Positions 18,229 to 64,000 of a stretch of DNA of 64,000 bases are shown piece after piece (positions within the stretch are counted from its first letter, which is position 1; every line of letters starts with the position of its first letter). The DNA lies in contig NC_092320.1 in NCBI RefSeq assembly GCF_036785885.1, forward strand, positions 16,493,557 to 16,557,556, written 5' to 3'. Position numbers and translations under genes: made by a program. Source of the stretch: Coffea arabica (Eukaryota > Streptophyta > Magnoliopsida > Gentianales > Rubiaceae). The notes under the pieces were generated by a model that saw only the letters and a list, made by a program, of their open reading frames with translations, was not told where the DNA came from and did not search any database.

Positions 18229-18229
18229 G

Positions 18230-26353: not shown

Positions 26354-26690
26354 TAATTCTTCCTTTCGAGTTAGACTGGTAATATTTCTTTTCTCAGCAT
26401 ATATGGGCAGCACCAAAAAAAAAAAAAAAGACTATTCCTCCAAAAAAAATAATAAATAAAGAAGAAGATCATACTTCACTAAAGAGACCAAACATCATTT
26501 ATTGTGGCAAAAACAAGAAACAATACATGTTGAGCTGATAAAGGCTATATGAGATACGTAATAAAAGGCACTGCATCACAAGACAAGATGCTAGTTTCAT
26601 GCTTATAACATCAGACCGTGATATATAGAAAAAGCAGAATTGCTTTCTAATTAATGAAGCACCAGCAATTATTTCAACATTTAAACTATT

Positions 26691-27811
26691 CTAAGCAGTG
26701 GGATAAGAAGCCTGGCTGGCGATGCCACAAAGGCCTTCTGGAGCACCAGTGTCTCTCTGAAGGCGCATGTACCCATCCTCACCCCAGCTAGTTCCCCAGG
26801 AATTCTTAACCAACCAATACTTGGTTCCATCCTCACTTGTACCGTATCCAACTAGTGTCACGGCATGGTCCAAGTTATTCCCACAATCGCCGGAGAAAAC
26901 GCCGCTTTGATAGTTTTTGAAGTCCATGCCGCTGCCTTCAATGCCAACTGATACGGGTTGTTTAGACACGGCCTGCAGAAGAGCATCCTCGTTATTCTGA
27001 GGGACATCTTCATAACCTGTGATCCGGACAGCTCCTTGGTCGTTATTGCAAGTGCCATCAGCTCCTTGATATGGGTACTCGGATTCAGTGGCGAGGCCAT
27101 TGCTAGCAATGAAATTAAATGCTTCATCCATGCGACCTCCACTGCAGCCATGATTACTACTGGTATCACAGTCAACAAGCTGTTGCTCAGACAGCGAGAT
27201 TAGCTGACCGGCTTTGAGTTTATGAATTCCTTCTACGGCTGCAACAGCTGAAAATGCCCAACAACATCCTGCATTTTCATTATCCAAAGGGGTTTTTCAT
27301 CCTAATTAGCCCAACTTCATATAGACATTTTGGCATGGAAAGCATATACTAATGGTGGTCAAATATTGGACTTACCACAAGCTGCCTGGTCCTTGACTCC
27401 AGTGACAGCACCTTTCTGTCTCCAGTCCGTGGAAGGCGGAGCGTCACTGACATCTGCATACCTGAATGAAGTTCCTTGAGATACGTCTTTCCTTGGTTTG
27501 TAGTTGTACCCAGTGCTGGCTGATAGGAACTCTTCGTTTGTCAGGTCAGCAAATCGGTTAATGCCCAACACGTAAGACTTGTTCCCAGCCTTGTTGAAGG
27601 CCTCAATGTACTCCACAGTTTCCTTGAAAATCTTGAATCGCTTTGCCTTCTCTGCCTCATCCTTGTAAACCCGTCCGTGTTCAACCATCCACTGCTCGTG
27701 CTTTTCAGTCAATGAGGCTTCATCCAAGCTGCGGGCCGTAGCTTGAGAAGCCAACATCGCCAGCAGTAAGAATGCGGCAGTAACCAGCATAGAATTGAAT
27801 GTCCAAGCCAT
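26691..27811 (-). CDS. Papain-type cysteine protease, SAG39-like (full inverted copy)
   Basis: Exon 1 27811-27376, intron 107 bp (27375-27269), exon 2 27268-26691; 337 residues. Signal peptide 1-26 (MAWTFNSMLVTAAFLLLAML...), I29 propeptide with an ERFNIN-like helix (EKAKRFKIFKETVEYIEAFN, Thr replacing the usual Asn) and GINRFAD, mature enzyme from about residue 125. Oxyanion Gln142, catalytic Cys148 (ACGCCWAF), His280 (LDHAVTLVGYG) and Asn301 ([13 protein letters not shown]) are intact. It differs from every other amplified copy at two sites, Ile169 and Gly230, where the others have Thr and Ser; Ile and Gly are also found in the gene at 14337, so this copy keeps the ancestral state. Likely secreted or vacuolar zymogen. 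Confidence 0.93.
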
Positions 27812-27934
27812 TGTTTGATTAAGAGCTCAAAGAAACAAGTGAATGGAAGAATCTGAGAGTATAAAGCCAATAAATTATGGTGCAAAAGATTTGAATGGGA
27901 AGCCACACTGCTTCCATTCAGAATACCAGCTAGC

Positions 27935-27942
27935 TATTTATA
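27935..27942 (-). promoter_or_regulatory. TATA box of the protease at 26691-27811
   Basis: TATAAATA on the minus strand, 124 bp before the ATG, in the context TCTATAAATAGCTAGCTGG. Confidence 0.75.
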
Positions 27943-28669
27943 GATTTCAGTTCGGAAAGCTGAGTTAATTATGACCAAATTTCCATCGTTTTGGTCCTAG
28001 AAACTCTGGCAAAATTATGCCCTAGATTGATGGGCAATCAGAAGCTCGGTTGGCATGCGTGAGCGTTGGTTTTGGGGCAGACGTAGGAAGTATTTGTGAT
28101 ACTCTTTATCAAACTATTAAGAATTAGTTATATGTGATACTCTTTAGTGAATGGTCTATTTAGAAACAACTTTATTCCCCTTTTCTTCTAATGAAACCTA
28201 TCCTGAAATTATGCACTATTTCTTACTTAGACATTTGTACCTTATGCTCTTGCAGTTTATCTTATATTTAAGTAATTGAAGAAATATGAAACTAAAAAAT
28301 AATATAATATATTGAAAAGCGGTGAGGTGTCTTAAAATAAAAAATGTTTGCATCTTTCACATTTGGAAACATCTATATATGACTACACTAATATCAAATC
28401 AGGTGATGCAATGTATCCAAAAATTGGAGTTTTGAATGCAACGTTCAAAATAAACACGAGTTAAGGGTATAATTCAACTTGATTTTTTTAGGTAAATAAT
28501 AAAGAAAAGTACAACAGATGGGGATGGCAAACCCGTCTATTGTCCTCATCAAAAGCAAAGGATACTTCACGGGGACATGATTCAATAAACACAAAGTATC
28601 TATCCAGATTACATCCCAGTATAGCTAGTGGTGCATCAGCACATCCCAGAATCACTTTAGTTGAACAAG

Positions 28670-29590
28670 AAGATGCCATCGAAGTCTATGCAGCAAGTCC
28701 AGTCGGAGAAGTTGATAAACTGCCGGAGTTCATTCTTCCCCGTCGAACACTCTTGTGCTCCGCGATTGGTAAGGGTAAGGACAAAAATTGATGGCTGTTC
28801 AAGACCTGTAATGAGCAAGACCTCAGTAATTTGTAAACCAAGAAGCTGATTCGCTAATGAAGTCTATGCGGCAAGTCTTGCAGAAGAAGTTGATGAAGTT
28901 TCGATCGGAGTTCAATCTGCCCCGCGGAACATTCAAGTGCCGCCGCAATTTGTGTAAGGATTAGGACAGCAGAAGTTGATGGCTGTTAAAGAAATGTAAA
29001 GACCGGGACCTCAAGTAATTTACTGCAGTGTAACGGCGAAGACCTCGAAATTCATGTCCCATGCAGCAATTTCTGTGGAATTGATAAAGTCTCCATTAGA
29101 GTTCCGTTCGGAACATGCCAATGGCGGAGTCAGGACCCTAGAGTTAGGGCGTCAATTTACGATAGCACGATAATAGTAGAGTTTAAAACCAATAAATATG
29201 TCCATCTTAAAAATTCATACTCTCCTATGGTAAATATACTTTTTTTTAATTTAAATTGCGCTTAAAATTTATAGTGAAAATTACCTTTGAATTAACATTT
29301 TTGGTAAGTCTAACACTCTTGTGAAGGGTGATGATTATAATTTTTTAATTATTTTTGGGAGCTATGTATGATAGGAAAGGGATTTTTTAAAATTTTAGAA
29401 GGGCAAATAAGTAACGATATTAGAAATTTCTGAACTTTCTAAGCTTAAAACATAATTTTCTCAAAATTGAGGGGGTGCAATTGTTCTCCCTCAACTATAT
29501 GTGGCTCCACCGCTGAAACATGCAAGTGCGACCGCGGTTACTAAGGCCGACTTGCAAGGACTAGAGCAGCAAAATGTCACGCAGAGAGTG
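28670..29590. repeat. Three diverged ~183-bp tandem repeats, third split by a MITE
   Basis: Copies begin near 28670, 28858 and 29041 and share words such as GAAGTCTATGC, GCAAGTC, GAAGTTGAT, CGGAGTTCA and TTGATGGCTGTT. The third is interrupted by the hAT MITE at 29119-29515 and resumes at 29524. Several short frames on both strands are open but unrecognised. The same layout recurs, reversed, in each tandem unit (for example 40219-41140). Confidence 0.55.
29119..29515. mobile_element. hAT-type MITE, 397 bp (inverted-block copy)
   Basis: Terminal inverted repeats CAATGGCGGAG at the left and CAGCGGTGGAG on the complement at the right. Flanking 8-mers GAACATGC (29111-29118) and AAACATGC (29516-29523) match at 7 of 8 bases, as expected for hAT. 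No coding. Confidence 0.8.
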
Positions 29591-30623
29591 AATTAAGTAC
29601 CGAACTTTATTTTAGTTTTAGTCTATTTGAGTAAATTCCTAGGGTTGAAAGAGAAATGAAATTACTTGATTCTCAAAATCATCTCCATGAGAAAAGAGTT
29701 TGGTTTGCTAACTAATCAAGTTAATTATAAATAGTATTTTGTGCTCAGTAAAATTTTAAATTTAACTTGAACTTGATTCAATCAGCATAAAACTTGAAAT
29801 TTATGTGTAAAAAAACTCAAGTTACTATAAATTGATTCAAGCTTGACTTGATTAAAGGTTATTTTAGTTCAATTTTTTGATAAGCAAATATGCCAAATTT
29901 GAACGTATTGCTGAACACATTAAAATAAATAAACAAAATTAAACACTGAAGTGTTTGGGTTGAGTAGACTCATTTACACTTGTATAAATGATGCCATTAG
30001 TAATCCTTGAAATTAAGTTCCTCGTGCTCTTAGTTAAATCCTCAACTTTTGAATGTGTCATCCTGGCTCTAATCTTTTCAATTTTCAAGCCAAATTCAAG
30101 TTTTTTTTTCCATTTTAATTGCCTTCCTTGGGTTTGACTTGATGTCAATTTAGAAAGTAGGCAAACATTTTTGCTGCCTCTTATGGTTTTATTTAAATTA
30201 ATTAGTGTTTAAGGTACATAATATATGCGTGCCGGTGATTAAAATTATGATCACTTGTAAATATTTGTCACAAAAAATGTTTTTCACTTGGAAAATATTT
30301 ATGGTGAGGGTTTCTTGTATTGTGTTCACTTATTTATTTGGTAGTTGCTAACGTAATTAAAATCTCTACATTAAGCTCTTAAAAATAGGAGGCTGGGGAA
30401 GCAATCAATTCACTAAATTACCCTTGAAATTATTATTTCTGTATGTGTAGAAAAGGTAAATACTCTTACTAGTGAAGATATTACAAGAAGTTTAAAAAAT
30501 GGCAAATATGTACTGGCACCACATAGTGGACTCCTCCTTTGTGTATTGTGTAGACTAGGTTAGTCTAACTGTGGAAGTCACAGCCGAAAATTTTATTTTA
30601 ATTCATACTCTCTTGCATAATTG

Positions 30624-30705
30624 CAATGTTTCTAAACTCGGACTGGCCAGTGAATCGGAGAAGGGAGCAGTTCACGGTCCGACCGACCGATTTATCGGTT
30701 CATTG

Positions 30706-30736
<31 letters not shown>

Positions 30737-31929
30737 GCTTGCAACTTCAGTACTAAGCACTCACAGTCACAGGTCGTCACTCTACACTTGAACTTGACGA
30801 CTCATGCACAATCCAACATAGTTATTGATAACTTAAGTCCTTAAAATGCATTCATCAACACAATTTAAAACTAAATTTAAGTTGAGATAATAATAAAATT
30901 TCTAAAATATATACATGAAATGGAATGATAAACATAACCAAAATTTCTAAACCAAGTTGGACTGTCTGCATCAATTAAAAAAAAAAACCACCTATTTTGT
31001 ACTTGTACTCCCCCAACAAAGCAAAAAGGGTACAAACCAGAGATTTTTAAAAAAAAAAAATCGAAGAAAGAAATAATAGTTATAAAATGAAACTAAAATT
31101 AAAAAAAAAAACTAATGGAATAAATTCATACCTTGAAGACCTTCACTGGATTGGTCAATGGCACTGCCAACAAAACAAACCCCAGTCAATGATGATTGCC
31201 TGGCTTCGAGTTATCTTTATCTATAAACAAAAATAGACAAAAAAGGACGAATTCATGTAAAAAAATAAAATAAAATAAAAAAGAAACTAGATTACTAGAT
31301 TAGTGCTTCTTTAGATTTCCTTCAAAATTTACCTGTGCATTACACGAACTGCAACTCTGCAACTGAGCCAAAGAAATCATACAAAAATAGTTCAATTCAT
31401 GGCCGAAAGGCTAAAAGGAGAAGAGGGAAAAGAAGATAGAGGAGGATGAGCCGATGAGGAAGTAAAGCAAAACAAAGAAATAAGAGCCGACGTGTCTTAG
31501 TCGCTAGTGCTGGGGTTTCTCTTTTTTAATTTAATTTTTAGTTTTTCACTAAATAAGTTAAGTAGATTTATACACAAAATACGTTTGTCCTGTGGTTGTA
31601 GTCTAACGGTAAGAAATCCTTCTTGTTGCCTTAAGGATTACGGTTCAAATCTTAGTGGTTGCATTCTTGAAATTGTTTTCATTTGAAAATTTTTAAAACT
31701 GCCGGTTCACTGTCTAAACGAGGATTAGGGTTCAAATCTTAGTGGTTGCATTCTTGAAATTGTTTTCATTTGAAAATTTTCAAAACCGCCGGTTCATTGT
31801 CTAAACGATTTTTCACAGTTTGTCCAGTTCACTTGGTTTCTAACGATTTTTCATTAATCTCCGGTTTTAGCATTAGACCGGACCGTTGAAATGTCCGGTT
31901 TGCAGTGCAGTCCAATTCTGAAAACATTG
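30624..31929. mobile_element. Non-autonomous hAT element B, ~1.3 kb (inverted-block copy)
   Basis: Ends are CAATGTTTCTAAACTCGG (left) and, on the complement of the right end, CAATGTTTTCAGAATTGG. Flanking 8-mers are CATAATTG (30616-30623) and CATGATTG (31930-31937), 7 of 8. The right part holds a duplicated ~100-bp segment and a tRNA-like stretch with A-box TAGTCTAACGGTAAG and B-box GGTTCAAATC (about 31595-31651). Contains a (TA)n run near 30708. No transposase. Confidence 0.8.
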
Positions 31930-32161
31930 CATGATTGTGGTACCAATTAGCTGAAAACAACCGATTTGAGGAACACTTATGGAGATAATTTTACACAATG
32001 AATTGTAAGGTAACGGAAGAAAATCAAAGACTCAAAATCTTAACCCCTTAACTAGTCTCCATTATTACGTTGGCAGATCCATAACATATTGTAACTGTAA
32101 CTACTTGGCTAACTAAATCAAGACTGTCGGGCATACTCTCCAAGCCCAGACAACTAGATGT

Positions 32162-32311
32162 AATCGAGAGTTTGCTAAAAATGCTTAAAAACTATAATTT
32201 TTTTTCTTGTTATCAAATACATTTGAATATGTTAATATCTAAATTCATTAACTTTAAATGCTAAATTGGGGTTTTCAAAAAAGGCCTAAGTTTTTTTTAT
32301 GTACTATCAGT
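32162..32311. repeat. Left piece of repeat block R2
   Basis: Similar to about 24230-24400 of R1 (shared ATCAAATACATTTGAATATGTTAA-type phrase and the TTTTTTATGTACTATCAG end). The hAT element A insertion separates it from the rest of R2. Confidence 0.55.
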
Positions 32312-34129
32312 CAGTGTTTTCAGAACCGGACCGGACCGGCCGGTTCAACCGGTTGGACCGCGAACCGGACAGGCCAACGGTCCGGTCTAGAGCTAAACCC
32401 GGAGAGTAGTCAAGAACCGCTGGAAACCGGATGACTCGGACGAACCGGAAAAACCCGCTTAGACCGTGAACCGGCGGTTTTTAAAACTTTTCAAAATGAA
32501 ATTCCAAATTGTAGCTGCCAAGAGTCAAACACCAAACCTTGTGTTTGTTATAAGAAGCCCTTACCACTGAGCCATAGGCAGCGGACATGATTATTTTGTG
32601 CAAATATCTACTTAACTTATTAAATGAAAAACTAAAAACACCCTAAACCTAAGATACATCAAACTTATTTCTTTGTATATAAAACATATATAAATGCAAA
32701 GATAGTAATAATTGTTAGTATATGTATATATATAATAAATTAGGTGTATTAAATGTGTTAGGACAACCGTTAAAAAAATCCTTTAATAAAATAGCTTTTT
32801 CAAATTATTTTTTAAATTTTTGTAGAAAATGTACGACAACGATTTAATATGTGTAGAATAAAAATAATCAAGAAATAAATTTGTGAAAAAATAAAAAATT
32901 AAAAAAAATGACAATCTAATTTGGTAACTAAATTGAATTGTTTAGATAAGTTATTGTTTTCAAAAATTTTAATTACATCAAAAACACTTGTGCTTTACAT
33001 CACAAATATATTGTTGGTATATCTATGTTTGTTAATGTACTCCCCTTGATTATTAATGTAATCCCCTTGATTTTTTAATTTGTGAAAATAAATAAAAATA
33101 CTTAGACTTTTAATTTCAGTTACAATCTCACAATAAAATAATGGTTGAAATGCAATAATAGATAGAAAGATTGAGTAGGGATATTCTTGCTCAATTGACA
33201 TTGTAGACAAGTATTTAGGAAAAAAATTGATAAGTAATTATTATTTTAAAAAATATTTATAATTACATTGTACACATTCGTACTTTACATCATGACTCCT
33301 TGATTTTTTTTTTTAATTTGTGTGAATAAACAAAATACTTAAAAATTTTAATTTCAATTACAATCTCAAAACAATATCGTAGGTAGTAACATTGAATAAG
33401 GATATTGTTACCTAACTGACTGGTAAATAAATATTAAATAAGGGAACATTGATAAATAATTGGGCGCTAATAACAATTTTCTAGTGGACAAAAAATGTGA
33501 ATATGGAGAATTTTTTTTCTTTCCAATGAATATGGACTGAGTGAGAAAGTCAAATGGCCGAATTGAAAACACAAATTTGAAAAAAGTTAAAAAAGAATTA
33601 TTTTTTTAACCCAAATTATTTAATGCTACAACCACTCACTTTTATCTCATTTTTTGTTTCTTATCAAGTTTGCATTTCTATTTTCGATTCTCTTGACTTC
33701 CTTCGAACTCCAAACTTTCTTTTTTAAATTGCAATCTCTAAATCCCAGAGGCATAAATTTAAAATTTAAGTTTACAATGTCAAATCCTCATAGACGTGAA
33801 TTTTGTATAATTTCAAAATATTGTGATATTTTTTGGATAGATTTAAGATTATTTTGGTAGATATAATTGAAATTGAAATGAAATTTATTTGTTTTAACTT
33901 ATAATTTAAAAAATTTATTTTTGAAAATCCAAGTTATTCAAAAATAGTAAACTTTTCATCATATAAAGTTTTAAATTAGTCTATTGCATGTCTTATTTTG
34001 TGCATATATATATTTATATAAATTATTTTTAAAAAAATTCATTGAACCGAGGTTGAACCGGTCCGACCGGTTGAACCTCGACCCTTTCACTTCGCCGGTT
34101 CAATTGACGGTCCGGGTTTTAAAACATTG
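32312..34129. mobile_element. Non-autonomous hAT element A, 1818 bp (inverted-block copy)
   Basis: A perfect 8-bp target duplication CTATCAGT flanks it (32304-32311 and 34130-34137). Ends are CAGTGTTTTCAGAACCGG (left) and CAATGTTTTAAAACCCGG on the complement of the right. Both ends are rich in CCGG/ACCGGT words. A tRNA-like segment (about 32517-32585, minus strand, with TGGCTCAGTGGTAAGGGC as A box) lies inside. The interior is AT-rich with no transposase. It sits within a minisatellite unit of block R2. Confidence 0.87.
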
Positions 34130-35230
34130 CTATCAGTGTGTATTTTTTATTTTTTTTTACATTAATAGGTTTACCCTTCTTGCTAATTTTTTTTCTTAAG
34201 GTAGGGGAAAAATTCAAAAACATATTAGTTAAAGAGTAAGTTTTTATACATTGAATCTTAAACCTCATCCTTCTTGCTAATTTTTTCAAAGGCAAGGAAA
34301 AATTCAAGAAAATATTAGTTAAAGAGTAAGTTTTTTATACACTATCAGTGAACAATTTTTTTTTCTTTTTACACTAGAAGATTCACCCTTCTTGCTAATT
34401 TTTTTAAGGTAGGGAAAAAACTCAAGTTACATATTAGTTACAAAGTAAGTTTTTTGATGCAATGCATTGTCAGTATATAATTTTTTTTTTTTTTACACTA
34501 GAAGATTCACCCTTCTTGCTACTTTATCTCAGGGCAAGGAAAAATTCAATAGCATATTAGTTAAAGGGTAAGTTTTTAATACATTGTTAGTGTACAAATT
34601 TTTTCATAATAGCATATTCACCTTTCTTCCTAATTTTTTTGTCAAGGCAAGGAAAACTTCAACAACATATTAGTTAAAGAGTAAATTTTTTATATACTGT
34701 CAGTGAACATTTTTTTTACACTAGCATATTTAGATCATGCCATATAATATAAATTCAAATTTGGGATTCAAATCATTCACATATGTGATGCATTTATAAC
34801 TACTAGTGTTTAAAAAATCACTACACACATGTGATGCACTTAAGAAGTTTATGAGGAATTTATCTGTGTGGTTGTTTTCTTAAGCACCGACTCTAGTGAA
34901 TTATATGGAGAGGGCTAGTGCAGTCAGGTACAGTTCAGTCCGGTTATTGTATTTATTATATTATTTGATGCGTAATTACATTACATTATTGTATTCAAGA
35001 TAAAATTAATATATATGAATAAAATATTCAACATAGTACAATATTATGATGTATGTGTACACTACAAATTTAAACATGTACACTGAACGGACCAAACCGT
35101 ACAAAAACACAATTGTATTGAGTCCTTGTCCAAATTTATATATACGCGAGCAACACGATATTTATCAAGGTATTTTGTTAGGATAGTCTAGCGAGTTCTT
35201 ATGCACCAACTCTTCTGACTTGCGCGATTA
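34130..35230. repeat. Repeat block R2: minisatellite of ~95-125-bp units plus spacer
   Basis: Unit starts (CTTCTTGCTAATTTT and variants) lie near 34177, 34271, 34388, 34511 and 34623; each carries AAGGCAAGGAAAAATTCAA, CATATTAGTTAAAGAGTAAG and a CAGTGTACAA-like phrase. Spacer to 35230 matches 24860-25690 of R1. Reversed copies occur in the tandem units at 43486-44586, 52396-53496 and 61306-62406. Confidence 0.78.
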
Positions 35231-35601
35231 TTGGTTACTCAAGAATTCTTTCCCGTTATTATGAATTCTTCCTTTCCAGTTAGACTGGTAATATTTCTTT
35301 TCTCAGCATATATGGGCAGCACCAAAAAAAAAAAAAAAGACTATTCCTCCAAAAAAAAAATAATAAATAAAGAAGAAGATCATACTTCACTAAAGAGACC
35401 AAACACCATTTATTCAGGCAAAAACAAGAAACAATACATGTTAAGCTGATAAAGGCTATATGAGATACGTAATAAAAGGCACTGCATCACAAGACAAGAT
35501 GCTAGTTTCATGCTTATAACATCAGACCGTGATATATAGAAAAAGCAGAATTGCTTTCTAATTAATGAAGCACCAGCAATTATTTCAACATTTAAACTAT
35601 T

Positions 35602-36569
35602 CTAAGCAGTGGGATAAGAAGCCTGGCTGGCGATGCCACAAAGGCCTTCTGGAGCACCAGTGTCTCTCTGAAGGCGCATGTACCCATCCTCACCCCAGCT
35701 AGTTCCCCAGGAATTCTTAACCAACCAATACTTGGTTCCATCCTCACTTGTACCGTATCCAACTAGTGTCACGGCATGGTCCAAGTTATTCCCACAATCG
35801 CCGGAGAAAACGCCGCTTTGATAGTTTTTGAAGTCCATGCCGCTGCCTTCAATGCCAACTGATACGGGTTGTTTAGACACGGCCTGCAGAAGAGCATCCT
35901 CGTTATTCTGAGGGACATCTTCATAACTTGTGATCCGGACAGCTCCTTGGTCGTTATTGCAAGTGCCATCAGCTCCTTGATATGGGTACTCGGATTCAGT
36001 GGCGAGGCCATTGCTAGCAATGAAATTAAATGCTTCATCCATGCGACCTCCACTGCAGCCATGATTACTACTGGTATCACAGTCAACAAGCTGTTGCTCA
36101 GACAGCGAGGTTAGCTGACCGGCTTTGAGTTTATGAATTCCTTCTACGGCTGCAACAGCTGAAAATGCCCAACAACATCCTGCATTTTCATTATCCAAAG
36201 GGGTTTTTCATCCTAATTAGCCCAACTTCATATAGACATTTTGGCATGGAAAGCATATACTAATGGTGGTCAAATATTGGACTTACCACAAGCTGCCTGG
36301 TCCTTGACTCCAGTGACAGCACCTTTCTGTCTCCAGTCCGTGGAAGGCGGAGCGTCACTGACATCTGCATACCTGAATGAAGTTCCTTGAGATACGTCTT
36401 TCCTTGGTTTGTAGTTGTACCCAGTGCTGGCTGATAGGAACTCTTCGTTTGTCAGGTCAGCAAATCGGTTAATGCCCAACACGTAAGACTTGTTCAGATT
36501 ACATCCCAGTATAGCTAGTGGTGCATCAGCACATCCCAGAATCACTTTAGTTGAACAAGAAGATGCCAT
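35602..36569 (-). CDS. Chimeric, N-terminally truncated SAG39-like cysteine protease
   Basis: Exon 2 (36179-35602) and the intron (36286-36180) equal those of the tandem copies, but exon 1 keeps only residues 77 onward (NKSYVLGINRFAD). A ~1020-bp deletion at about 36493-36495 joined it to sequence normally ~0.6 kb upstream of the promoter, removing the TATA box, signal peptide and most of the I29 propeptide. By chance the junction is in frame with an ATG at 36569, giving a predicted 286-residue protein whose first 25 residues (MASSCSTKVILGCADAPLAI...) are new. Catalytic Cys97, His229 and Asn250 remain. With no signal peptide and no recognised promoter it is probably silent or mislocalised; a pseudogene is as likely as a gene. 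Confidence 0.7.
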
Positions 36570-36612
36570 CGAAGTCTATGCAGCAAGTCCAGTCGGAGAA
36601 GTTGATAAACTG

Positions 36613-37495
36613 TTGAGCAAGAATATCCCTACTCAATCTTTCTATCTATTATTGCATTTCAACCATTATTTTATTGTGAGATTGTAACTGAAATTAAAAG
36701 TCTAAGTATTTTTATTTATTTTCACAAATTAAAAAATCAAGGGGATTACATTAATAATCAAGGGGAGTACATTAACAAACATAGATATACCAACAATATA
36801 TTTGTGATGTAAAGCACAAGTGTTTTTGATGTAATTAAAATTTTTGAAAACAATAACTTATCTAAACAATTCAATTTAGTTACCAAATTAGATTGTCATT
36901 TTTTTTAATTTTTTATTTTTTCACAAATTTATTTCTTGATTATTTTTATTCTACACATATTAAATCGTTGTCGTACATTTTCTACAAAAATTTAAAAAAT
37001 AATTTGAAAAAGCTATTTTATTAAAGGATTTTTTTAACGGTTGTCCTAACACATTTAATACACCTAATTTATTATATATATACATATACTAACAATTATT
37101 ACTATCTTTGCATTTATATATGTTTTATATACAAAGAAATAAGTTTGATGTATCTTAGGTTTAGGGTGTTTTTAGTTTTTCATTTAATAAGTTAAGTAGA
37201 TATTTGCACAAAATAATCATGTCCGCTGCCTATGGCTCAGTGGTAAGGGCTTCTTATAACAAACACAAGGTTTGGTGTTTGACTCTTGGCAGCTACAATT
37301 TGGAATTTCATTTTGAAAAGTTTTAAAAACCGCCGGTTCACGGTCTAAGCGGGTTTTTCCGGTTCGTCCGAGTCATCCGGTTTCCAGCGGTTCTTGACTA
37401 CTCTCCGGGTTTAGCTCTAGACCGGACCGTTGGCCTGTCCGGTTCGCGGTCCAACCGGTTGAACCGGCCGGTCCGGTCCGGTTCTGAAAACACTG
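36613..37495. mobile_element. hAT element A, truncated at the inversion junction
   Basis: The right part of the element, ending ...CTGAAAACACTG followed by ACTGATAG. Its left half is replaced at 36612/36613 by inverted-block sequence. Confidence 0.82.
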
Positions 37496-37876
37496 ACTGA
37501 TAGTACATAAAAAAAACTTAGGCCTTTTTTGAAAACCCCAATTTAGCATTTAAAGTTAATGAATTTAGATATTAACATATTCAAATGTATTTGATAACAA
37601 GAAAAAAAATTATAGTTTTTAAGCATTTTTGCAAACTCTCGATTACATCTAGTTGTCTGGGCTTGGAGAGTATGCCCGACAGTCTTGATTTAGTTAGCCA
37701 AGTAGTTACAGTTACAATATGTTATGGATCTGCCAACGTAATAATGGAGACTAGTTAAGGGGTTAAGATTTTGAGTCTTTGATTTTCTTCCGTTACCTTA
37801 CAATTCATTGTGTAAAATTATCTCCATAAGTGTTCCTCAAATCGGTTGTTTTCAGCTAATTGGTACCACAATCATG

Positions 37877-39067
37877 CAATGTTTTCAGAATTGGACTGCA
37901 CTGCAAACCGGACATTTCAACGGTCCGGTCTAATGCTAAAACCGGAGATTAATGAAAAATCGTTAGAAACCAAGTGAACTGGACAAACTGTGAAAAATCG
38001 TTTAGACAATGAACCGGCGGTTTTGAAAATTTTCAAATGAAAACAATTTCAAGAATGCAACCACTAAGATTTGAACCCTAATCCTCGTTTAGACAGTGAA
38101 CCGGCAGTTTTAAAAATTTTCAAATGAAAACAATTTCAAGAATGCAACCACTAAGATTTGAACCGTAATCCTTAAGGCAACAAGAAGGATTTCTTACCGT
38201 TAGACTACAACCACAGGACAAACGTATTTTGTGTATAAATCTACTTAACTTATTTAGTGAAAAACTAAAAATTAAATTAAAAAAGAGAAACCCCAGCACT
38301 AGCGACTAAGACACGTCGGCTCTTATTTCTTTGTTTTGCTTTACTTCCTCATCGGCTCATCCTCCTCTATCTTCTTTTCCCTCTTCTCCTTTTAGCCTTT
38401 CGGCCATGAATTGAACTATTTTTGTATGATTTCTTTGGCTCAGTTGCAGAGTTGCAGTTCGTGTAATGCACAGGTAAATTTTGAAGGAAATCTAAAGAAG
38501 CACTAATCTAGTAATCTAGTTTCTTTTTTATTTTATTTTATTTTTTTACATGAATTCGTCCTTTTTTGTCTATTTTTGTTTATAGATAAAGATAACTCGA
38601 AGCCAGGCAATCATCATTGACTGGGGTTTGTTTTGTTGGCAGTGCCATTGACCAATCCAGTGAAGGTCTTCAAGGTATGAATTTATTCCATTAGTTTTTT
38701 TTTTTAATTTTAGTTTCATTTTATAACTATTATTTCTTTCTTCGATTTTTTTTTTTTAAAAATCTCTGGTTTGTACCCTTTTTGCTTTGTTGGGGGAGTA
38801 CAAGTACAAAATAGGTGGTTTTTTTTTTTAATTGATGCAGACAGTCCAACTTGGTTTAGAAATTTTGGTTATGTTTATCATTCCATTTCATGTATATATT
38901 TTAGAAATTTTATTATTATCTCAACTTAAATTTAGTTTTAAATTGTGTTGATGAATGCATTTTAAGGACTTAAGTTATCAATAACTATGTTGGATTGTGC
39001 ATGAGTCGTCAAGTTCAAGTGTAGAGTGACGACCTGTGACTGTGAGTGCTTAGTACTGAAGTTGCAA

Positions 39068-39101
<34 letters not shown>

Positions 39102-47977: not shown

Positions 47978-48011
<34 letters not shown>

Positions 48012-52024: not shown

Positions 52025-52395
52025 AATAGTTTAAATGTTGAAATAATTGCTGGTGCTTCATTAATTAGAAAGCAATTCTGCTTTTTCTATATATCACGGT
52101 CTGATGTTATAAGCATGAAACTAGCATCTTGTCTTGTGATGCAGTGCCTTTTATTACGTATCTCATATAGCCTTTATCAGCTTAACATGTATTGTTTCTT
52201 GTTTTTGCCTGAATAAATGGTGTTTGGTCTCTTTAGTGAAGTATGATCTTCTTCTTTATTTATTATTTTTTTTTTGGAGGAATAGTCTTTTTTTTTTTTT
52301 TTGGTGCTGCCCATATATGCTGAGAAAAGAAATATTACCAGTCTAACTGGAAAGGAAGAATTCATAATAACGGGAAAGAATTCTTGAGTAACCAA

Positions 52396-53496
52396 TAATC
52401 GCGCAAGTCAGAAGAGTTGGTGCATAAGAACTCGCTAGACTATCCTAACAAAATACCTTGATAAATATCGTGTTGCTCGCGTATATATAAATTTGGACAA
52501 TGACTCAATACAATTGTGTTTTTGTACGGTTTGGTCCGTTCAGTGTACATGTTTAAATTTGTAGTGTACACATACATCATAATATTGTACTATGTTGAAT
52601 ATTTTATTCATATATATTAATTTTATCTTGAATACAATAATGTAATGTAATTACGCATCAAATAATATAATAAATACAATAACCGGACTGAACTGTACCT
52701 GACTGCACTAGCCCTCTCCATATAATTCACTAGAGTCGGTGCTTAAGAAAACAACCACACAGATAAATTCCTCATAAACTTCTTAAGTGCATCACATGTG
52801 TGTAGTGATTTTTTAAACACTAGTAGTTATAAATGCATCACATATGTGAATGATTTGAATCCCAAATTTGAATTTATATTATATGGCATGATCTAAATAT
52901 GCTAGTGTAAAAAAAATGTTCACTGACAGTATATAAAAAATTTACTCTTTAACTAATATGTTGTTGAAGTTTTCCTTGCCTTGACAAAAAAATTAGGAAG
53001 AAAGGTGAATATGCTATTATGAAAAAATTTGTACACTAACAATGTATTAAAAACTTACCCTTTAACTAATATGCTATTGAATTTTTCCTTGCCCTGAGAT
53101 AAAGTAGCAAGAAGGGTGAATCTTCTAGTGTAAAAAAAAAAAAAATTATATACTGACAATGCATTGCATCAAAAAACTTACTTTGTAACTAATATGTAAC
53201 TTGAGTTTTTTCCCTACCTTAAAAAAATTAGCAAGAAGGGTGAATCTTCTAGTGTAAAAAGAAAAAAAAATTGTTCACTGATAGTGTATAAAAAACTTAC
53301 TCTTTAACTAATATTTTCTTGAATTTTTCCTTGCCTTTGAAAAAATTAGCAAGAAGGATGAGGTTTAAGATTCAATGTATAAAAACTTACTCTTTAACTA
53401 ATATGTTTTTGAATTTTTCCCCTACCTTAAGAAAAAAAATTAGCAAGAAGGGTAAACCTATTAATGTAAAAAAAAATAAAAAATACACACTGATAG
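52396..53496. repeat. Reversed R block (unit 2)
   Basis: Copy of 43486-44586 at +8910. Confidence 0.75.
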
Positions 53497-55314
53497 CAAT
53501 GTTTTAAAACCCGGACCGTCAATTGAACCGGCGAAGTGAAAGGGTCGAGGTTCAACCGGTCGGACCGGTTCAACCTCGGTTCAATGAATTTTTTTAAAAA
53601 TAATTTATATAAATATATATATGCACAAAATAAGACATGCAATAGACTAATTTAAAACTTTATATGATGAAAAGTTTACTATTTTTGAATAACTTGGATT
53701 TTCAAAAATAAATTTTTTAAATTATAAGTTAAAACAAATAAATTTCATTTCAATTTCAATTATATCTACCAAAATAATCTTAAATCTATCCAAAAAATAT
53801 CACAATATTTTGAAATTATACAAAATTCACGTCTATGAGGATTTGACATTGTAAACTTAAATTTTAAATTTATGCCTCTGGGATTTAGAGATTGCAATTT
53901 AAAAAAGAAAGTTTGGAGTTCGAAGGAAGTCAAGAGAATCGAAAATAGAAATGCAAACTTGATAAGAAACAAAAAATGAGATAAAAGTGAGTGGTTGTAG
54001 CATTAAATAATTTGGGTTAAAAAAATAATTCTTTTTTAACTTTTTTCAAATTTGTGTTTTCAATTCGGCCATTTGACTTTCTCACTCAGTCCATATTCAT
54101 TGGAAAGAAAAAAAATTCTCCATATTCACATTTTTTGTCCACTAGAAAATTGTTATTAGCGCCCAATTATTTATCAATGTTCCCTTATTTAATATTTATT
54201 TACCAGTCAGTTAGGTAACAATATCCTTATTCAATGTTACTACCTACGATATTGTTTTGAGATTGTAATTGAAATTAAAATTTTTAAGTATTTTGTTTAT
54301 TCACACAAATTAAAAAAAAAAATCAAGGAGTCATGATGTAAAGTACGAATGTGTACAATGTAATTATAAATATTTTTTAAAATAATAATTACTTATCAAT
54401 TTTTTTCCTAAATACTTGTCTACAATGTCAATTGAGCAAGAATATCCCTACTCAATCTTTCTATCTATTATTGCATTTCAACCATTATTTTATTGTGAGA
54501 TTGTAACTGAAATTAAAAGTCTAAGTATTTTTATTTATTTTCACAAATTAAAAAATCAAGGGGATTACATTAATAATCAAGGGGAGTACATTAACAAACA
54601 TAGATATACCAACAATATATTTGTGATGTAAAGCACAAGTGTTTTTGATGTAATTAAAATTTTTGAAAACAATAACTTATCTAAACAATTCAATTTAGTT
54701 ACCAAATTAGATTGTCATTTTTTTTAATTTTTTATTTTTTCACAAATTTATTTCTTGATTATTTTTATTCTACACATATTAAATCGTTGTCGTACATTTT
54801 CTACAAAAATTTAAAAAATAATTTGAAAAAGCTATTTTATTAAAGGATTTTTTTAACGGTTGTCCTAACACATTTAATACACCTAATTTATTATATATAT
54901 ACATATACTAACAATTATTACTATCTTTGCATTTATATATGTTTTATATACAAAGAAATAAGTTTGATGTATCTTAGGTTTAGGGTGTTTTTAGTTTTTC
55001 ATTTAATAAGTTAAGTAGATATTTGCACAAAATAATCATGTCCGCTGCCTATGGCTCAGTGGTAAGGGCTTCTTATAACAAACACAAGGTTTGGTGTTTG
55101 ACTCTTGGCAGCTACAATTTGGAATTTCATTTTGAAAAGTTTCAAAAACCGCCGGTTCACGGTCTAAGCGGGTTTTTCCGGTTCGTCCGAGTCATCCGGT
55201 TTCCAGCGGTTCTTGACTACTCTCCGGGTTTAGCTCTAGACCGGACCGTTGGCCTGTCCGGTTCGCGGTCCAACCGGTTGAACCGGCCGGTCCGGTCCGG
55301 TTCTGAAAACACTG
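53497..55314. mobile_element. Non-autonomous hAT element A (units 2/3)
   Basis: Copy of 44587-46404 at +8910 with the same ACTGATAG flanks. Confidence 0.87.
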
Positions 55315-55696
55315 ACTGATAGTACATAAAAAAAACTTAGGCCTTTTTTGAAAACCCCAATTTAGCATTTAAAGTTAATGAATTTAGATATTAACATATT
55401 CAAATGTATTTGATAACAAGAAAAAAAATTATAGTTTTTAAGCATTTTTAGCAAACTCTCGATTACATCTAGTTGTCTGGGCTTGGAGAGTATGCCCGAC
55501 AGTCTTGATTTAGTTAGCCAAGTAGTTACAGTTACAATATGTTATGGATCTGCCAACGTAATAATGGAGACTAGTTAAGGGGTTAAGATTTTGAGTCTTT
55601 GATTTTCTTCCGTTACCTTACAATTCATTGTGTAAAATTATCTCCATAAGTGTTCCTCAAATCGGTTGTTTTCAGCTAATTGGTACCACAATCATG

Positions 55697-56887
55697 CAAT
55701 GTTTTCAGAATTGGACTGCACTGCAAACCGGACATTTCAACGGTCCGGTCTAATGCTAAAACCGGAGATTAATGAAAAATCGTTAGAAACCAAGTGAACT
55801 GGACAAACTGTGAAAAATCGTTTAGACAATGAACCGGCGGTTTTGAAAATTTTCAAATGAAAACAATTTCAAGAATGCAACCACTAAGATTTGAACCCTA
55901 ATCCTCGTTTAGACAGTGAACCGGCAGTTTTAAAAATTTTCAAATGAAAACAATTTCAAGAATGCAACCACTAAGATTTGAACCGTAATCCTTAAGGCAA
56001 CAAGAAGGATTTCTTACCGTTAGACTACAACCACAGGACAAACGTATTTTGTGTATAAATCTACTTAACTTATTTAGTGAAAAACTAAAAATTAAATTAA
56101 AAAAGAGAAACCCCAGCACTAGCGACTAAGACACGTCGGCTCTTATTTCTTTGTTTTGCTTTACTTCCTCATCGGCTCATCCTCCTCTATCTTCTTTTCC
56201 CTCTTCTCCTTTTAGCCTTTCGGCCATGAATTGAACTATTTTTGTATGATTTCTTTGGCTCAGTTGCAGAGTTGCAGTTCGTGTAATGCACAGGTAAATT
56301 TTGAAGGAAATCTAAAGAAGCACTAATCTAGTAATCTAGTTTCTTTTTTATTTTATTTTATTTTTTTACATGAATTCGTCCTTTTTTGTCTATTTTTGTT
56401 TATAGATAAAGATAACTCGAAGCCAGGCAATCATCATTGACTGGGGTTTGTTTTGTTGGCAGTGCCATTGACCAATCCAGTGAAGGTCTTCAAGGTATGA
56501 ATTTATTCCATTAGTTTTTTTTTTTAATTTTAGTTTCATTTTATAACTATTATTTCTTTCTTCGATTTTTTTTTTTTAAAAATCTCTGGTTTGTACCCTT
56601 TTTGCTTTGTTGGGGGAGTACAAGTACAAAATAGGTGGTTTTTTTTTTTAATTGATGCAGACAGTCCAACTTGGTTTAGAAATTTTGGTTATGTTTATCA
56701 TTCCATTTCATGTATATATTTTAGAAATTTTATTATTATCTCAACTTAAATTTAGTTTTAAATTGTGTTGATGAATGCATTTTAAGGACTTAAGTTATCA
56801 ATAACTATGTTGGATTGTGCATGAGTCGTCAAGTTCAAGTGTAGAGTGACGACCTGTGACTGTGAGTGCTTAGTACTGAAGTTGCAA

Positions 56888-56921
<34 letters not shown>

Positions 56922-57001
56922 ATGAACCGATAAATCGGTCGGTCGGACCGTGAACTGCTCCCTTCTCCGATTCACTGGCCAGTCCGAGTTTAGAAACATT
57001 G
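55697..57001. mobile_element. Non-autonomous hAT element B (unit 3 copy)
   Basis: Copy of 46787-48091 at +8910. Confidence 0.8.
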
Positions 57002-58109
57002 CAATTATGCAAGAGAGTATGAATTAAAATAAAATTTTCGGCTGTGACTTCCACAGTTAGACTAACCTAGTCTACACAATACACAAAGGAGGAGTCCACT
57101 ATGTGGTGCCAGTACATATTTGCCATTTTTTAAACTTCTTGTAATATCTTCACTAGTAAGAGTATTTACCTTTTCTACACATACAGAAATAATAATTTCA
57201 AGGGTAATTTAGTGAATTGATTGCTTCCCCAGCCTCCTATTTTTAAGAGCTTAATGTAGAGATTTTAATTACGTTAGCAACTACCAAATAAATAAGTGAA
57301 CACAATACAAGAAACCCTCACCATAAATATTTTCCAAGTGAAAAACATTTTTTGTGACAAATATTTACAAGTGATCATAATTTTAATCACCGGCACGCAT
57401 ATATTATGTACCTTAAACACTAATTAATTTAAATAAAACCATAAGAGGCAGCAAAAATGTTTGCCTACTTTCTAAATTGACATCAAGTCAAACCCAAGGA
57501 AGGCAATTAAAATGGAAAAAAAAACTTGAATTTGGCTTGAAAATTGAAAAGATTAGAGCCAGGATGACACATTCAAAAGTTGAGGATTTAACTAAGAGCA
57601 CGAGGAACTTAATTTCAAGGATTACTAATGGCATCATTTATACAAGTGTAAATGAGTCTACTCAACCCAAACACTTCAGTGTTTAATTTTGTTTATTTAT
57701 TTTAATGTGTTCAGCAATACGTTCAAATTTGGCATATTTGCTTATCAAAAAATTGAACTAAAATAACCTTTAATCAAGTCAAGCTTGAATCAATTTATAG
57801 TAACTTGAGTTTTTTTACACATAAATTTCAAGTTTTATGCTGATTGAATCAAGTTCAAGTTAAATTTAAAATTTTACTGAGCACAAAATACTATTTATAA
57901 TTAACTTGATTAGTTAGCAAACCAAACTCTTTTCTCATGGAGATGATTTTGAGAATCAAGTAATTTCATTTCTCTTTCAACCCTAGGAATTTACTCAAAT
58001 AGACTAAAACTAAAATAAAGTTCGGTACTTAATTCACTCTCTGCGTGACATTTTGCTGCTCTAGTCCTTGCAAGTCGGCCTTAGTAACCGCGGTCGCACT
58101 TGCATGTTT

Positions 58110-58506
58110 CAGCGGTGGAGCCACATATAGTTGAGGGAGAACAATTGCACCCCCTCAATTTTGAGAAAATTATGTTTTAAGCTTAGAAAGTTCAGAAATT
58201 TCTAATATCGTTACTTATTTGCCCTTCTAAAATTTTAAAAAATCCCTTTCCTATCATACATAGCTCCCAAAAATAATTAAAAAATTATAATCATCACCCT
58301 TCACAAGAGTGTTAGACTTACCAAAAATGTTAATTCAAAGGTAATTTTCACTATAAATTTTAAGCGCAATTTAAATTAAAAAAAAGTATATTTACCATAG
58401 GAGAGTATGAATTTTTAAGATGGACATATTTATTGGTTTTAAACTCTACTATTATCGTGCTATCGTAAATTGACGCCCTAACTCTAGGGTCCTGACTCCG
58501 CCATTG
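58110..58506. mobile_element. hAT-type MITE (unit 3 copy)
   Basis: Copy of 49200-49596 at +8910. Confidence 0.8.
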
Positions 58507-59682
58507 GCATGTTCCGAACGGAACTCTAATGGAGACTTTATCAATTCCACAGAAATTGCTGCATGGGACATGAATTTCGAGGTCTTCGCCGTTACACTGC
58601 AGTAAATTACTTGAGGTCCCGGTCTTTACATTTCTTTAACAGCCATCAACTTCTGCTGTCCTAATCCTTACACAAATTGCGGCGGCACTTGAATGTTCCG
58701 CGGGGCAGATTGAACTCCGATCGAAACTTCATCAACTTCTTCTGCAAGACTTGCCGCATAGACTTCATTAGCGAATCAGCTTCTTGGTTTACAAATTACT
58801 GAGGTCTTGCTCATTACAGGTCTTGAACAGCCATCAATTTTTGTCCTTACCCTTACCAATCGCGGAGCACAAGAGTGTTCGACGGGGAAGAATGAACTCC
58901 GGCAGTTTATCAACTTCTCCGACTGGACTTGCTGCATAGACTTCGATGGCATCTTCTTGTTCAACTAAAGTGATTCTGGGATGTGCTGATGCACCACTAG
59001 CTATACTGGGATGTAATCTGGATAGATACTTTGTGTTTATTGAATCATGTCCCCGTGAAGTATCCTTTGCTTTTGATGAGGACAATAGACGGGTTTGCCA
59101 TCCCCATCTGTTGTACTTTTCTTTATTATTTACCTAAAAAAATCAAGTTGAATTATACCCTTAACTCGTGTTTATTTTGAACGTTGCATTCAAAACTCCA
59201 ATTTTTGGATACATTGCATCACCTGATTTGATATTAGTGTAGTCATATATAGATGTTTCCAAATGTGAAAGATGCAAACATTTTTTATTTTAAGACACCT
59301 CACCGCTTTTCAATATATTATATTATTTTTTAGTTTCATATTTCTTCAATTACTTAAATATAAGATAAACTGCAAGAGCATAAGGTACAAATGTCTAAGT
59401 AAGAAATAGTGCATAATTTCAGGATAGGTTTCATTAGAAGAAAAGGGGAATAAAGTTGTTTCTAAATAGACCATTCACTAAAGAGTATCACATATAACTA
59501 ATTCTTAATAGTTTGATAAAGAGTATCACAAATACTTCCTACGTCTGCCCCAAAACCAACGCTCACGCATGCCAACCGAGCTTCTGATTGCCCATCAATC
59601 TAGGGCATAATTTTGCCAGAGTTTCTAGGACCAAAACGATGGAAATTTGGTCATAATTAACTCAGCTTTCCGAACTGAAATC

Positions 59683-59690
59683 TATAAATA
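59683..59690 (+). promoter_or_regulatory. TATA box of the protease in unit 3
   Basis: TATAAATA 124 bp before the ATG at 59814. Confidence 0.75.
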
Positions 59691-59813
59691 GCTAGCTGGT
59701 ATTCTGAATGGAAGCAGTGTGGCTTCCCATTCAAATCTTTTGCACCATAATTTATTGGCTTTATACTCTCAGATTCTTCCATTCACTTGTTTCTTTGAGC
59801 TCTTAATCAAACA

Positions 59814-60934
59814 ATGGCTTGGACATTCAATTCTATGCTGGTTACTGCCGCATTCTTACTGCTGGCGATGTTGGCTTCTCAAGCTACGGCCCGCAGCTTG
59901 GATGAAGCCTCATTGACTGAAAAGCACGAGCAGTGGATGGTTGAACACGGACGGGTTTACAAGGATGAGGCAGAGAAGGCAAAGCGATTCAAGATTTTCA
60001 AGGAAACTGTGGAGTACATTGAGGCCTTCAACAAGGCTGGGAACAAGTCTTACGTGTTGGGCATTAACCGATTTGCTGACCTGACAAACGAAGAGTTCCT
60101 ATCAGCCAGCACTGGGTACAACTACAAACCAAGGAAAGACGTATCTCAAGGAACTTCATTCAGGTATGCAGATGTCAGTGACGCTCCGCCTTCCACGGAC
60201 TGGAGACAGAAAGGTGCTGTCACTGGAGTCAAGGACCAGGCAGCTTGTGGTAAGTCCAATATTTGACCACCATTAGTATATGCTTTCCATGCCAAAATGT
60301 CTATATGAAGTTGGGCTAATTAGGATGAAAAACCCCTTTGGATAATGAAAATGCAGGATGTTGTTGGGCATTTTCAGCTGTTGCAGCCGTAGAAGGAATT
60401 CATAAACTCAAAGCCGGTCAGCTAACCTCGCTGTCTGAGCAACAGCTTGTTGACTGTGATACCAGTAGTAATCATGGCTGCAGTGGAGGTCGCATGGATG
60501 AAGCATTTAATTTCATTGCTAGCAATGGCCTCGCCACTGAATCCGAGTACCCATATCAAGGAGCTGATGGCACTTGCAATAACGACCAAGGAGCTGTCCG
60601 GATCACAAGTTATGAAGATGTCCCTCAGAATAACGAGGATGCTCTTCTGCAGGCCGTGTCTAAACAACCCGTATCAGTTGGCATTGAAGGCAGCGGCATG
60701 GACTTCAAAAACTATCAAAGCGGCGTTTTCTCCGGCGATTGTGGGAATAACTTGGACCATGCCGTGACACTAGTTGGATACGGTACAAGTGAGGATGGAA
60801 CCAAGTATTGGTTGGTTAAGAATTCCTGGGGAACTAGCTGGGGTGAGGATGGGTACATGCGCCTTCAGAGAGACACTGGTGCTCCAGAAGGCCTTTGTGG
60901 CATCGCCAGCCAGGCTTCTTATCCCACTGCTTAG
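59814..60934 (+). CDS. Papain-type cysteine protease, SAG39-like (tandem copy 3)
   Basis: Exons 59814-60249 and 60357-60934. The 337-residue product is identical to tandem copies 1 and 2, with an intact signal peptide, I29 propeptide and catalytic set. It is the last protease in the window, but the array continues, so further copies may follow. Confidence 0.93.
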
Positions 60935-61305
60935 AATAGTTTAAATGTTGAAATAATTGCTGGTGCTTCATTAATTAGAAAGCAATTCTGCTTTTTCTAT
61001 ATATCACGGTCTGATGTTATAAGCATGAAACTAGCATCTTGTCTTGTGATGCAGTGCCTTTTATTACGTATCTCATATAGCCTTTATCAGCTTAACATGT
61101 ATTGTTTCTTGTTTTTGCCTGAATAAATGGTGTTTGGTCTCTTTAGTGAAGTATGATCTTCTTCTTTATTTATTATTTTTTTTTTGGAGGAATAGTCTTT
61201 TTTTTTTTTTTTGGTGCTGCCCATATATGCTGAGAAAAGAAATATTACCAGTCTAACTGGAAAGGAAGAATTCATAATAACGGGAAAGAATTCTTGAGTA
61301 ACCAA

Positions 61306-62406
61306 TAATCGCGCAAGTCAGAAGAGTTGGTGCATAAGAACTCGCTAGACTATCCTAACAAAATACCTTGATAAATATCGTGTTGCTCGCGTATATATAA
61401 ATTTGGACAAGGACTCAATACAATTGTGTTTTTGTACGGTTTGGTCCGTTCAGTGTACATGTTTAAATTTGTAGTGTACACATACATCATAATATTGTAC
61501 TATGTTGAATATTTTATTCATATATATTAATTTTATCTTGAATACAATAATGTAATGTAATTACGCATCAAATAATATAATAAATACAATAACCGGACTG
61601 AACTGTACCTGACTGCACTAGCCCTCTCCATATAATTCACTAGAGTCGGTGCTTAAGAAAACAACCACACAGATAAATTCCTCATAAACTTCTTAAGTGC
61701 ATCACATGTGTGTAGTGATTTTTTAAACACTAGTAGTTATAAATGCATCACATATGTGAATGATTTGAATCCCAAATTTGAATTTATATTATATGGCATG
61801 ATCTAAATATGCTAGTGTAAAAAAAATGTTCACTGACAGTATATAAAAAATTTACTCTTTAACTAATATGTTGTTGAAGTTTTCCTTGCCTTGACAAAAA
61901 AATTAGGAAGAAAGGTGAATATGCTATTATGAAAAAATTTGTACACTAACAATGTATTAAAAACTTACCCTTTAACTAATATGCTATTGAATTTTTCCTT
62001 GCCCTGAGATAAAGTAGCAAGAAGGGTGAATCTTCTAGTGTAAAAAAAAAAAAAATTATATACTGACAATGCATTGCATCAAAAAACTTACTTTGTAACT
62101 AATATGTAACTTGAGTTTTTTCCCTACCTTAAAAAAATTAGCAAGAAGGGTGAATCTTCTAGTGTAAAAAGAAAAAAAAATTGTTCACTGATAGTGTATA
62201 AAAAACTTACTCTTTAACTAATATTTTCTTGAATTTTTCCTTGCCTTTGAAAAAATTAGCAAGAAGGATGAGGTTTAAGATTCAATGTATAAAAACTTAC
62301 TCTTTAACTAATATGTTTTTGAATTTTTCCCCTACCTTAAGAAAAAAAATTAGCAAGAAGGGTAAACCTATTAATGTAAAAAAAAATAAAAAATACACAC
62401 TGATAG
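61306..62406. repeat. Reversed R block (unit 3)
   Basis: Copy of 52396-53496 at +8910. Confidence 0.75.
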
Positions 62407-64000
62407 CAATGTTTTAAAACCCGGACCGTCAATTGAACCGGCGAAGTGAAAGGGTCGAGGTTCAACCGGTCGGACCGGTTCAACCTCGGTTCAATGAATT
62501 TTTTTAAAAATAATTTATATAAATATATATATGCACAAAATAAGACATGCAATAGACTAATTTAAAACTTTATATGATGAAAAGTTTACTATTTTTGAAT
62601 AACTTGGATTTTCAAAAATAAATTTTTTAAATTATAAGTTAAAACAAATAAATTTCATTTCAATTTCAATTATATCTACCAAAATAATCTTAAATCTATC
62701 CAAAAAATATCACAATATTTTGAAATTATACAAAATTCACGTCTATGAGGATTTGACATTGTAAACTTAAATTTTAAATTTATGCCTCTGGGATTTAGAG
62801 ATTGCAATTTAAAAAAGAAAGTTTGGAGTTCGAAGGAAGTCAAGAGAATCGAAAATAGAAATGCAAACTTGATAAGAAACAAAAAATGAGATAAAAGTGA
62901 GTGGTTGTAGCATTAAATAATTTGGGTTAAAAAAATAATTCTTTTTTAACTTTTTTCAAATTTGTGTTTTCAATTCGGCCATTTGACTTTCTCACTCAGT
63001 CCATATTCATTGGAAAGAAAAAAAATTCTCCATATTCACATTTTTTGTCCACTAGAAAATTGTTATTAGCGCCCAATTATTTATCAATGTTCCCTTATTT
63101 AATATTTATTTACCAGTCAGTTAGGTAACAATATCCTTATTCAATGTTACTACCTACGATATTGTTTTGAGATTGTAATTGAAATTAAAATTTTTAAGTA
63201 TTTTGTTTATTCACACAAATTAAAAAAAAAAATCAAGGAGTCATGATGTAAAGTACGAATGTGTACAATGTAATTATAAATATTTTTTAAAATAATAATT
63301 ACTTATCAATTTTTTTCCTAAATACTTGTCTACAATGTCAATTGAGCAAGAATATCCCTACTCAATCTTTCTATCTATTATTGCATTTCAACCATTATTT
63401 TATTGTGAGATTGTAACTGAAATTAAAAGTCTAAGTATTTTTATTTATTTTCACAAATTAAAAAATCAAGGGGATTACATTAATAATCAAGGGGAGTACA
63501 TTAACAAACATAGATATACCAACAATATATTTGTGATGTAAAGCACAAGTGTTTTTGATGTAATTAAAATTTTTGAAAACAATAACTTATCTAAACAATT
63601 CAATTTAGTTACCAAATTAGATTGTCATTTTTTTTAATTTTTTATTTTTTCACAAATTTATTTCTTGATTATTTTTATTCTACACATATTAAATCGTTGT
63701 CGTACATTTTCTACAAAAATTTAAAAAATAATTTGAAAAAGCTATTTTATTAAAGGATTTTTTTAACGGTTGTCCTAACACATTTAATACACCTAATTTA
63801 TTATATATATACATATACTAACAATTATTACTATCTTTGCATTTATATATGTTTTATATACAAAGAAATAAGTTTGATGTATCTTAGGTTTAGGGTGTTT
63901 TTAGTTTTTCATTTAATAAGTTAAGTAGATATTTGCACAAAATAATCATGTCCGCTGCCTATGGCTCAGTGGTAAGGGCTTCTTATAACAAACACAAGGT
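62407..64000. mobile_element. Non-autonomous hAT element A, cut by window end
   Basis: Copy of 53497 onward at +8910. The last ~225 bp lie beyond the window. Confidence 0.85.
63342..64000 (+). repeat. Tandem unit 4 (start only)
   Basis: Continues unit order without change to the last base, so the array is longer than this window. Confidence 0.88.

Follow-up and report, generated by a model that had tools for sequence, protein, structure and literature searches.

Tandem and inverted copies of a predicted papain-type cysteine protease gene in an older gene cluster of Coffea arabica

How does a single gene, together with its surroundings, come to be repeated at one chromosomal position both head-to-tail and in reverse? 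The question is raised by a stretch of 64,000 bp of Coffea arabica DNA (NC_092320.1, positions 16,493,557 to 16,557,556; 34.5% G+C by base counts), referred to here as the window, in which a segment of 8.91 kb carrying a cysteine protease gene forms a direct array with reversed copies of the same sequence immediately to its left. The initial annotation described the locus as a recent inverted-plus-tandem amplification – a large palindrome followed by a direct array – and likened it to the products of break-induced replication or of the insertion of multimeric circular DNA.

A direct array in an older protease cluster

Self-BLAST of the window gives a direct match between positions 36613-55090 and 45522-64000, with 99.978% identity over 18,479 columns, and the 8.91-kb unit runs as a direct array across 36613-64000, with three whole units and a fourth that is ended by the window edge. 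As placed by self-BLAST and alignment, the whole units are D1 (36613..45521; 8909 bp), D2 (45522..54431; 8910 bp) and D3 (54432..63341; 8910 bp), all on the plus strand, and the 659 bp that are present of the fourth (63342..64000, plus strand) are 100% identical to 36613-37271. Self-BLAST thus bears out the earlier count of at least three head-to-tail units with periods of 8909 and 8910, and the near identity includes the non-coding DNA. Repeats of such length and identity are far outside chance.

In the alignment, D1 and D2 differ at three columns and D2 and D3 at one, each over approximately 8.9 kb, and the private differences are a T in D2 (at 52501) and a one-base deletion in D1 (near 37630). 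At a plant substitution rate near 7e-9 per site per year, the single D2/D3 substitution over 8,910 bp would very roughly correspond to an age on the scale of ten thousand years or below; this estimate is given little weight, since an array undergoing gene conversion appears more recent than it is. Weak direct repeats lie near both drawn ends of D2, in the last 180 bp and the first 260 bp of the unit, where phases 8728-8796 match 56-124 (84%) and phases 8813-8880 match 193-259 (76%; 70 columns each), and these could mark the original tandem join, or else an older local repeat. Another short array, with a repeat of approximately 113 bp, is located downstream of the gene at 52909-53361 and at the same place in the other units, with relatives at 23955-24157 and 24484-24717.

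Each direct unit contains one recognised gene, which has one intron and encodes 337 aa. It is located at 41994..43114 in D1 (exons 41994-42429 and 42537-43114), 50904..52024 in D2 (exons 50904-51339 and 51447-52024) and 59814..60934 in D3, in all cases on the plus strand, and the three predicted proteins are identical. The protein matches the Pfam families Peptidase_C1 (PF00112; 4.6e-80) and Inhibitor_I29 (PF08246; 4.6e-21), as well as 178 distinct PDB sequences at E ≤0.001, the best of which is FBSB (8.2e-100), with Triticain alpha also among the best. The translated gene contains CGCCWAF, LDHAVTLVGYG and NSWGTSWG, which we take to hold the predicted catalytic Cys, His and Asn. By these similarities the product is classified as a papain family (C1A) cysteine protease; CGCCWAF is presumably the motif of SAG12/SAG39-type enzymes, and a SAG12/SAG39-like label, drawn from sequence motifs and the single intron, would be suitable for it. 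A TATA-like site is predicted at 50773 in D2 and an AATAAA at 52212, and D1, D2 and D3 do not differ at any base of the stretch 50504-52024, such that the description of each unit as carrying promoter, gene and terminator stands for the direct units, as a prediction.

Beyond the protease, 13 of the unit's 43 ORFs of at least 50 aa were compared with Pfam (four at E ≤0.01 and nine at E ≤0.1), and none of the 13 matched a mobile-element or replication family. A virus or mobile element was rejected as the identity of the unit for want of a Pfam match among these ORFs, which is weak evidence. Rfam gave no matches in the window at gathering scores.

The array is not the only protease sequence in the window. 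An older paralogue at 14337..15472 (plus strand) is apparently intact, with 62% and 68% aa identity in its two exons, and a second, at 21506..23220 (plus strand), is matched in several frames and is probably a pseudogene. The longest DNA matches of the unit gene to these two are 72.2% and 70.6% identical, respectively, and the paralogues match each other at 89.9% over 596 columns. Two older paralogues share the locus with the array, and we interpret the array as the most recent visible episode in a long history of repeated duplication there.

Several other features occupy the left part of the window. A long-terminal-repeat element at 1-7725 has visible terminal repeats (1-1723 and 6003-7725) that are 100% identical, and, on its minus strand, an ORF for gag (Retrotrans_gag, 3.8e-20); the other ORFs of at least 100 aa lying wholly between the repeats are three of 102, 114 and 169 aa that are antisense to or overlap gag, and one of 131 aa. 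The element looks young and is possibly gag-only, and the window may begin within its left repeat. Its presence, the base composition and the intron-bearing protease gene are all as expected of a eukaryotic, most likely plant, genome. An ORF at 12488-13276 codes for a predicted AN1/C2H2 zinc-finger protein (ZFAND2-type, 2.1e-16; zf-AN1, 2.6e-09), which presumably resembles the plant stress-associated proteins. Between the two older protease copies is an inverted repeat (17903-20235) with arms of approximately 1.05 kb (94.8% over 1,072 columns), in very A+T-rich DNA (18.3% G+C at 18001-20000), that is perhaps a fold-back element.

The inverted arm, its centre and its left end

The reversed sequence to the left of D1 (26348..36495, minus strand) aligns by self-BLAST with 52369-42221 at 99.872% over 10,150 columns. 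It had been described as 1.15 units beginning at 26354 and directly adjoining the array; the reversal is as described, and the arm begins at 26348 and extends for 1.14 units, with a further 118 bp between it and D1. It therefore exceeds one unit and continues through the unit join. Aligned with both of its direct counterparts (42221-52369 and 51131-61279), the arm has 14 differing columns, with adjacent changes counted singly, and one of these is the change private to D2. These differences are unevenly distributed, and 11 of the 14 columns are clustered at the left end of the arm. Towards the centre, 32536-36495 is 100% identical to 60041-64000 by self-BLAST, and the inner arm (33195-36495) is not an exact match to the stretch from 51131, as expected because D2 has its private T at 52501. 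The weakest of the private differences is a one-base indel in the arm at 30734, beside an AT microsatellite.

The point at which the arm meets the array has two joints. The arm is interrupted within the first exon of the inner protease copy (35602..36494, minus strand), which adjoins the centre. It continues with a segment of 118 bp (36495..36612, in the orientation of the arm, minus strand), and from there passes directly into the array, where the orientation reverses. Joint 1 (36494/36495) shares 1 bp, and joint 2 (36612/36613), where the inversion occurs, shares 0 bp. Missing from the arm at joint 1 are 1,021 bp (50111-51131 in D2 terms) that include the TATA-like site, the start codon and 76 codons, and the inner copy is thus 5′-truncated, without its upstream region and first 76 codons. 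The 118-bp segment is an exact copy of unit positions 49993-50110, which rules out foreign filler; the same 118 bp are present in the arm and in D1 to D3, and the template copy is not distinguishable by sequence. The two sides of the centre meet at different phases of the unit (approximately 4470 and 0), so that the centre is not a simple palindrome. A chimeric open frame extends over the centre joint (36260-36700), and consists of a short unit ORF followed by the protease from residue 77; that it stays open may or may not be by chance.

Would such a centre require reverse copying at all? The array could have formed first and its left part, slightly more than one unit long, then been turned around by a plain two-break inversion with deletions at the breakpoints. 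Consistent with this, the arm is colinear with the unit except for the gap of 1,021 bp, the joints are blunt or share 1 bp, and phase 711 is T in both the arm and D1 and C in D2 and D3, as in units that were once neighbours; copying from D1 would give the same base, and inversion of part of an existing array would yield nearly the same final sequence. When turned back, however, the arm ends at phase 6847 before the phase 0 of D1, such that approximately 2.1 kb of unit must have been lost. The left break would moreover have to coincide with the start of older DNA related to the unit, as described below, and we regard a plain inversion, although it is the main rival account, as rather unlikely.

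The left end of the arm (26348..27199, minus strand) is diverged, and is probably the remnant of an older resident gene copy. Eleven of the 14 differing columns are within these 852 bp and nine are within 26348-26532, forming a gradient with three columns in 27200-36495, two in the next 667 bp and nine in the last 185 bp. For an even spread, the binomial P is approximately 4e-10 for 26348-27199 and approximately 4e-13 for 26348-26532, in a calculation that treats all columns as independent, including adjacent ones. The last 185 bp are approximately 95% like the unit, compared with 68-85% for the flank beyond, and the reading as a resident remnant therefore needs at least two tiers of age, which counts against it. 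Clustered differences could also stem from an older gene conversion or from error-prone synthesis during repair, though mutagenic repair synthesis would not favour older residues.

The residues in question are in the outer protease gene of the arm, which is complete (26691..27811, minus strand; exons 27376-27811 and 26691-27268). Its exon 1 and 400 bp of upstream sequence are exactly as in the array copies, although its product has I for T at residue 169 and G for S at residue 230. Both neighbouring paralogues read LISLSEQ and ITG, and thus have I and G where the array copies have T and S; among the two best PDB matches residue 230 is G, whereas residue 169 varies (E, I). The outer end of the arm seems to keep the older residue states and the array to carry derived ones, as would be expected if the resident gene had kept its 3′ end while array sequence replaced the remainder. 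In total there are five protease copies in the window, four complete and one 5′-truncated, and within the arm the assignment of promoter and gene to every unit is appropriate for the outer gene and fails for the inner copy.

The DNA to the left of the arm is itself related to the unit. Local BLAST identifies 24462..25694 (minus strand, as the arm) as an older homologue of the unit's downstream region, with matches of 68-85% whose order and orientation are the same as in the unit's downstream DNA; the intervening 25695-26347 (approximately 650 bp) is without counterpart in the unit. Part of the match is the 113-bp-type repeat, which is present too at 23955-24157; outside of these repeats, 24922-25248 matches unit phase 6952-7265 at 74.7% over 328 columns (E 4e-54). 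An end-to-end MAFFT alignment missed the relationship, with 35-54% identity in most bins. The arm seems to be linked to older DNA that is related to the surroundings of the unit itself, and was probably joined by homology to the resident gene.

Near-perfect long repeats are where assemblers fail, and a true two- or three-copy region might have been expanded or mis-joined to give the arrangement in this assembly. The copies have private differences, however (D2 at 52501, D1 near 37630 and the arm at 30734), and a simple mis-join would not create the specific deletion-plus-inversion joint at the centre or the graded left end. We consider an artefact of this kind quite unlikely.

Origin of the arrangement

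On balance, we favour a recent tandem amplification within an old protease cluster, combined with one repair event that copied approximately 1.14 units in reverse. A papain-type cysteine protease gene of the cluster would have been amplified head-to-tail as the 8.91-kb unit, and a broken DNA end, located at an older resident copy of opposite orientation, would have paired by homology with a unit of the array, or with a multimer or circle of that unit. Repair synthesis, during or after growth of the array, would then have copied the reversed arm, with 1,021 bp lost or skipped and 118 bp more copied, before the product was fused to the direct array at a junction free of homology. Because the arm continues past the join between units, its template must have been tandem or circular, and the combination of homology-led entry at one end and end joining at the centre would fit repair replication with a template switch. 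We infer both the order of these events and the repair pathway from the final arrangement of the sequence.

The recent inverted-plus-tandem amplification of the protease segment is itself evident in the window, and the proposed role of break-induced replication gains some support from the graded left end beside an older homologue and from centre joints of 1 bp and 0 bp; gene conversion or inversion fit these features too. The other suggested route involves multimeric circular DNA: an extrachromosomal circle made of several units would have integrated at the resident gene, one side through homology and the other through end joining. A circular template would fit both the near-identical head-to-tail units and an arm that crosses the unit join. 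A multimer inserted from a single circle has all of its units in one orientation, however, and the inverted arm needs a second event; moreover, the DNA on the left is no unrelated sequence but a relative of what lies downstream in the unit (the right flank is outside the window), and the lack of mobile-element or replication families among the 13 of 43 unit ORFs also counts against a circle, as weak evidence. Insertion of a circle is quite unlikely.

Consequences for the gene and comparison with known systems

The amplification has probably raised the number of genes for this one enzyme, to four complete copies in the window and to a higher total if the array extends past it, and we infer that an increase in dosage is plausible. 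In a contrary reading of the inverted arm, read-through RNA would fold into a hairpin, and the small RNAs derived from it would silence the protease family, the truncated copy being part of the trigger; in a smaller variant, the in-frame fusion ORF at the centre joint would supply a new N-terminus. If silencing is true, the gain in copies would lower the enzyme, and we would be seeing a natural silencing locus very early, perhaps no more than thousands of generations after it arose. Such a functional fold-back is very improbable, and silencing is a weaker alternative here than dosage because the genes to the left and right of the centre are directed outwards, such that their own promoters would not be expected to read through the inverted repeat. 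Whether an array of mixed direct and inverted members increases the output of its gene or silences it could be tested simply at this locus, and a young amplification with a homology-type end and an end-joining-type fold-back should be useful for understanding how plant-like genomes multiply genes; it is otherwise an ordinary, neat example of local gene-family growth.

We found no report of this protease array in openly licensed papers. A report on papain-type genes that includes castor describes single-intron genes arising mostly by tandem duplication, with a pseudogene in castor, all of which is like the protease locus; the identities it gives are 76.4%-97.8%, and 'inverted' does not occur in its main text, whereas the direct units here are approximately 99.98% identical over 8.9 kb including their flanks. 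The soybean I locus is likewise built of plant gene copies in inverted repeat, from which siRNA arises that reduces the output of the family (PMC3804491), whereas the protease genes face away from their centre. Amplification of EPSPS in Amaranthus palmeri, also a plant gene amplification, involves an extrachromosomal circle of 399 kb, in contrast to an array that is attached to its flank (PMC7480871, PMC9473621).

A precedent is the EPSPS locus of Kochia scoparia, a recent chromosomal amplification that, like the protease locus, has mostly direct repeats together with inverted members (PMC6808082). The described Kochia array includes an inverted full-length repeat of 56.1 kb, an inverted repeat of 18.2 kb and shortened repeat types, for which a microhomology-type joining has been proposed (PMC6808082), and inverted members in recent plant gene arrays are thus already on record. 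The Kochia repeat types are nonetheless 18-56 kb in length and most contain several genes, with a mobile element at the breakpoints and a background of herbicide selection (PMC6808082), whereas the protease array is built from an 8.9-kb unit with one recognised gene, and with no mobile element recognised at its joints.
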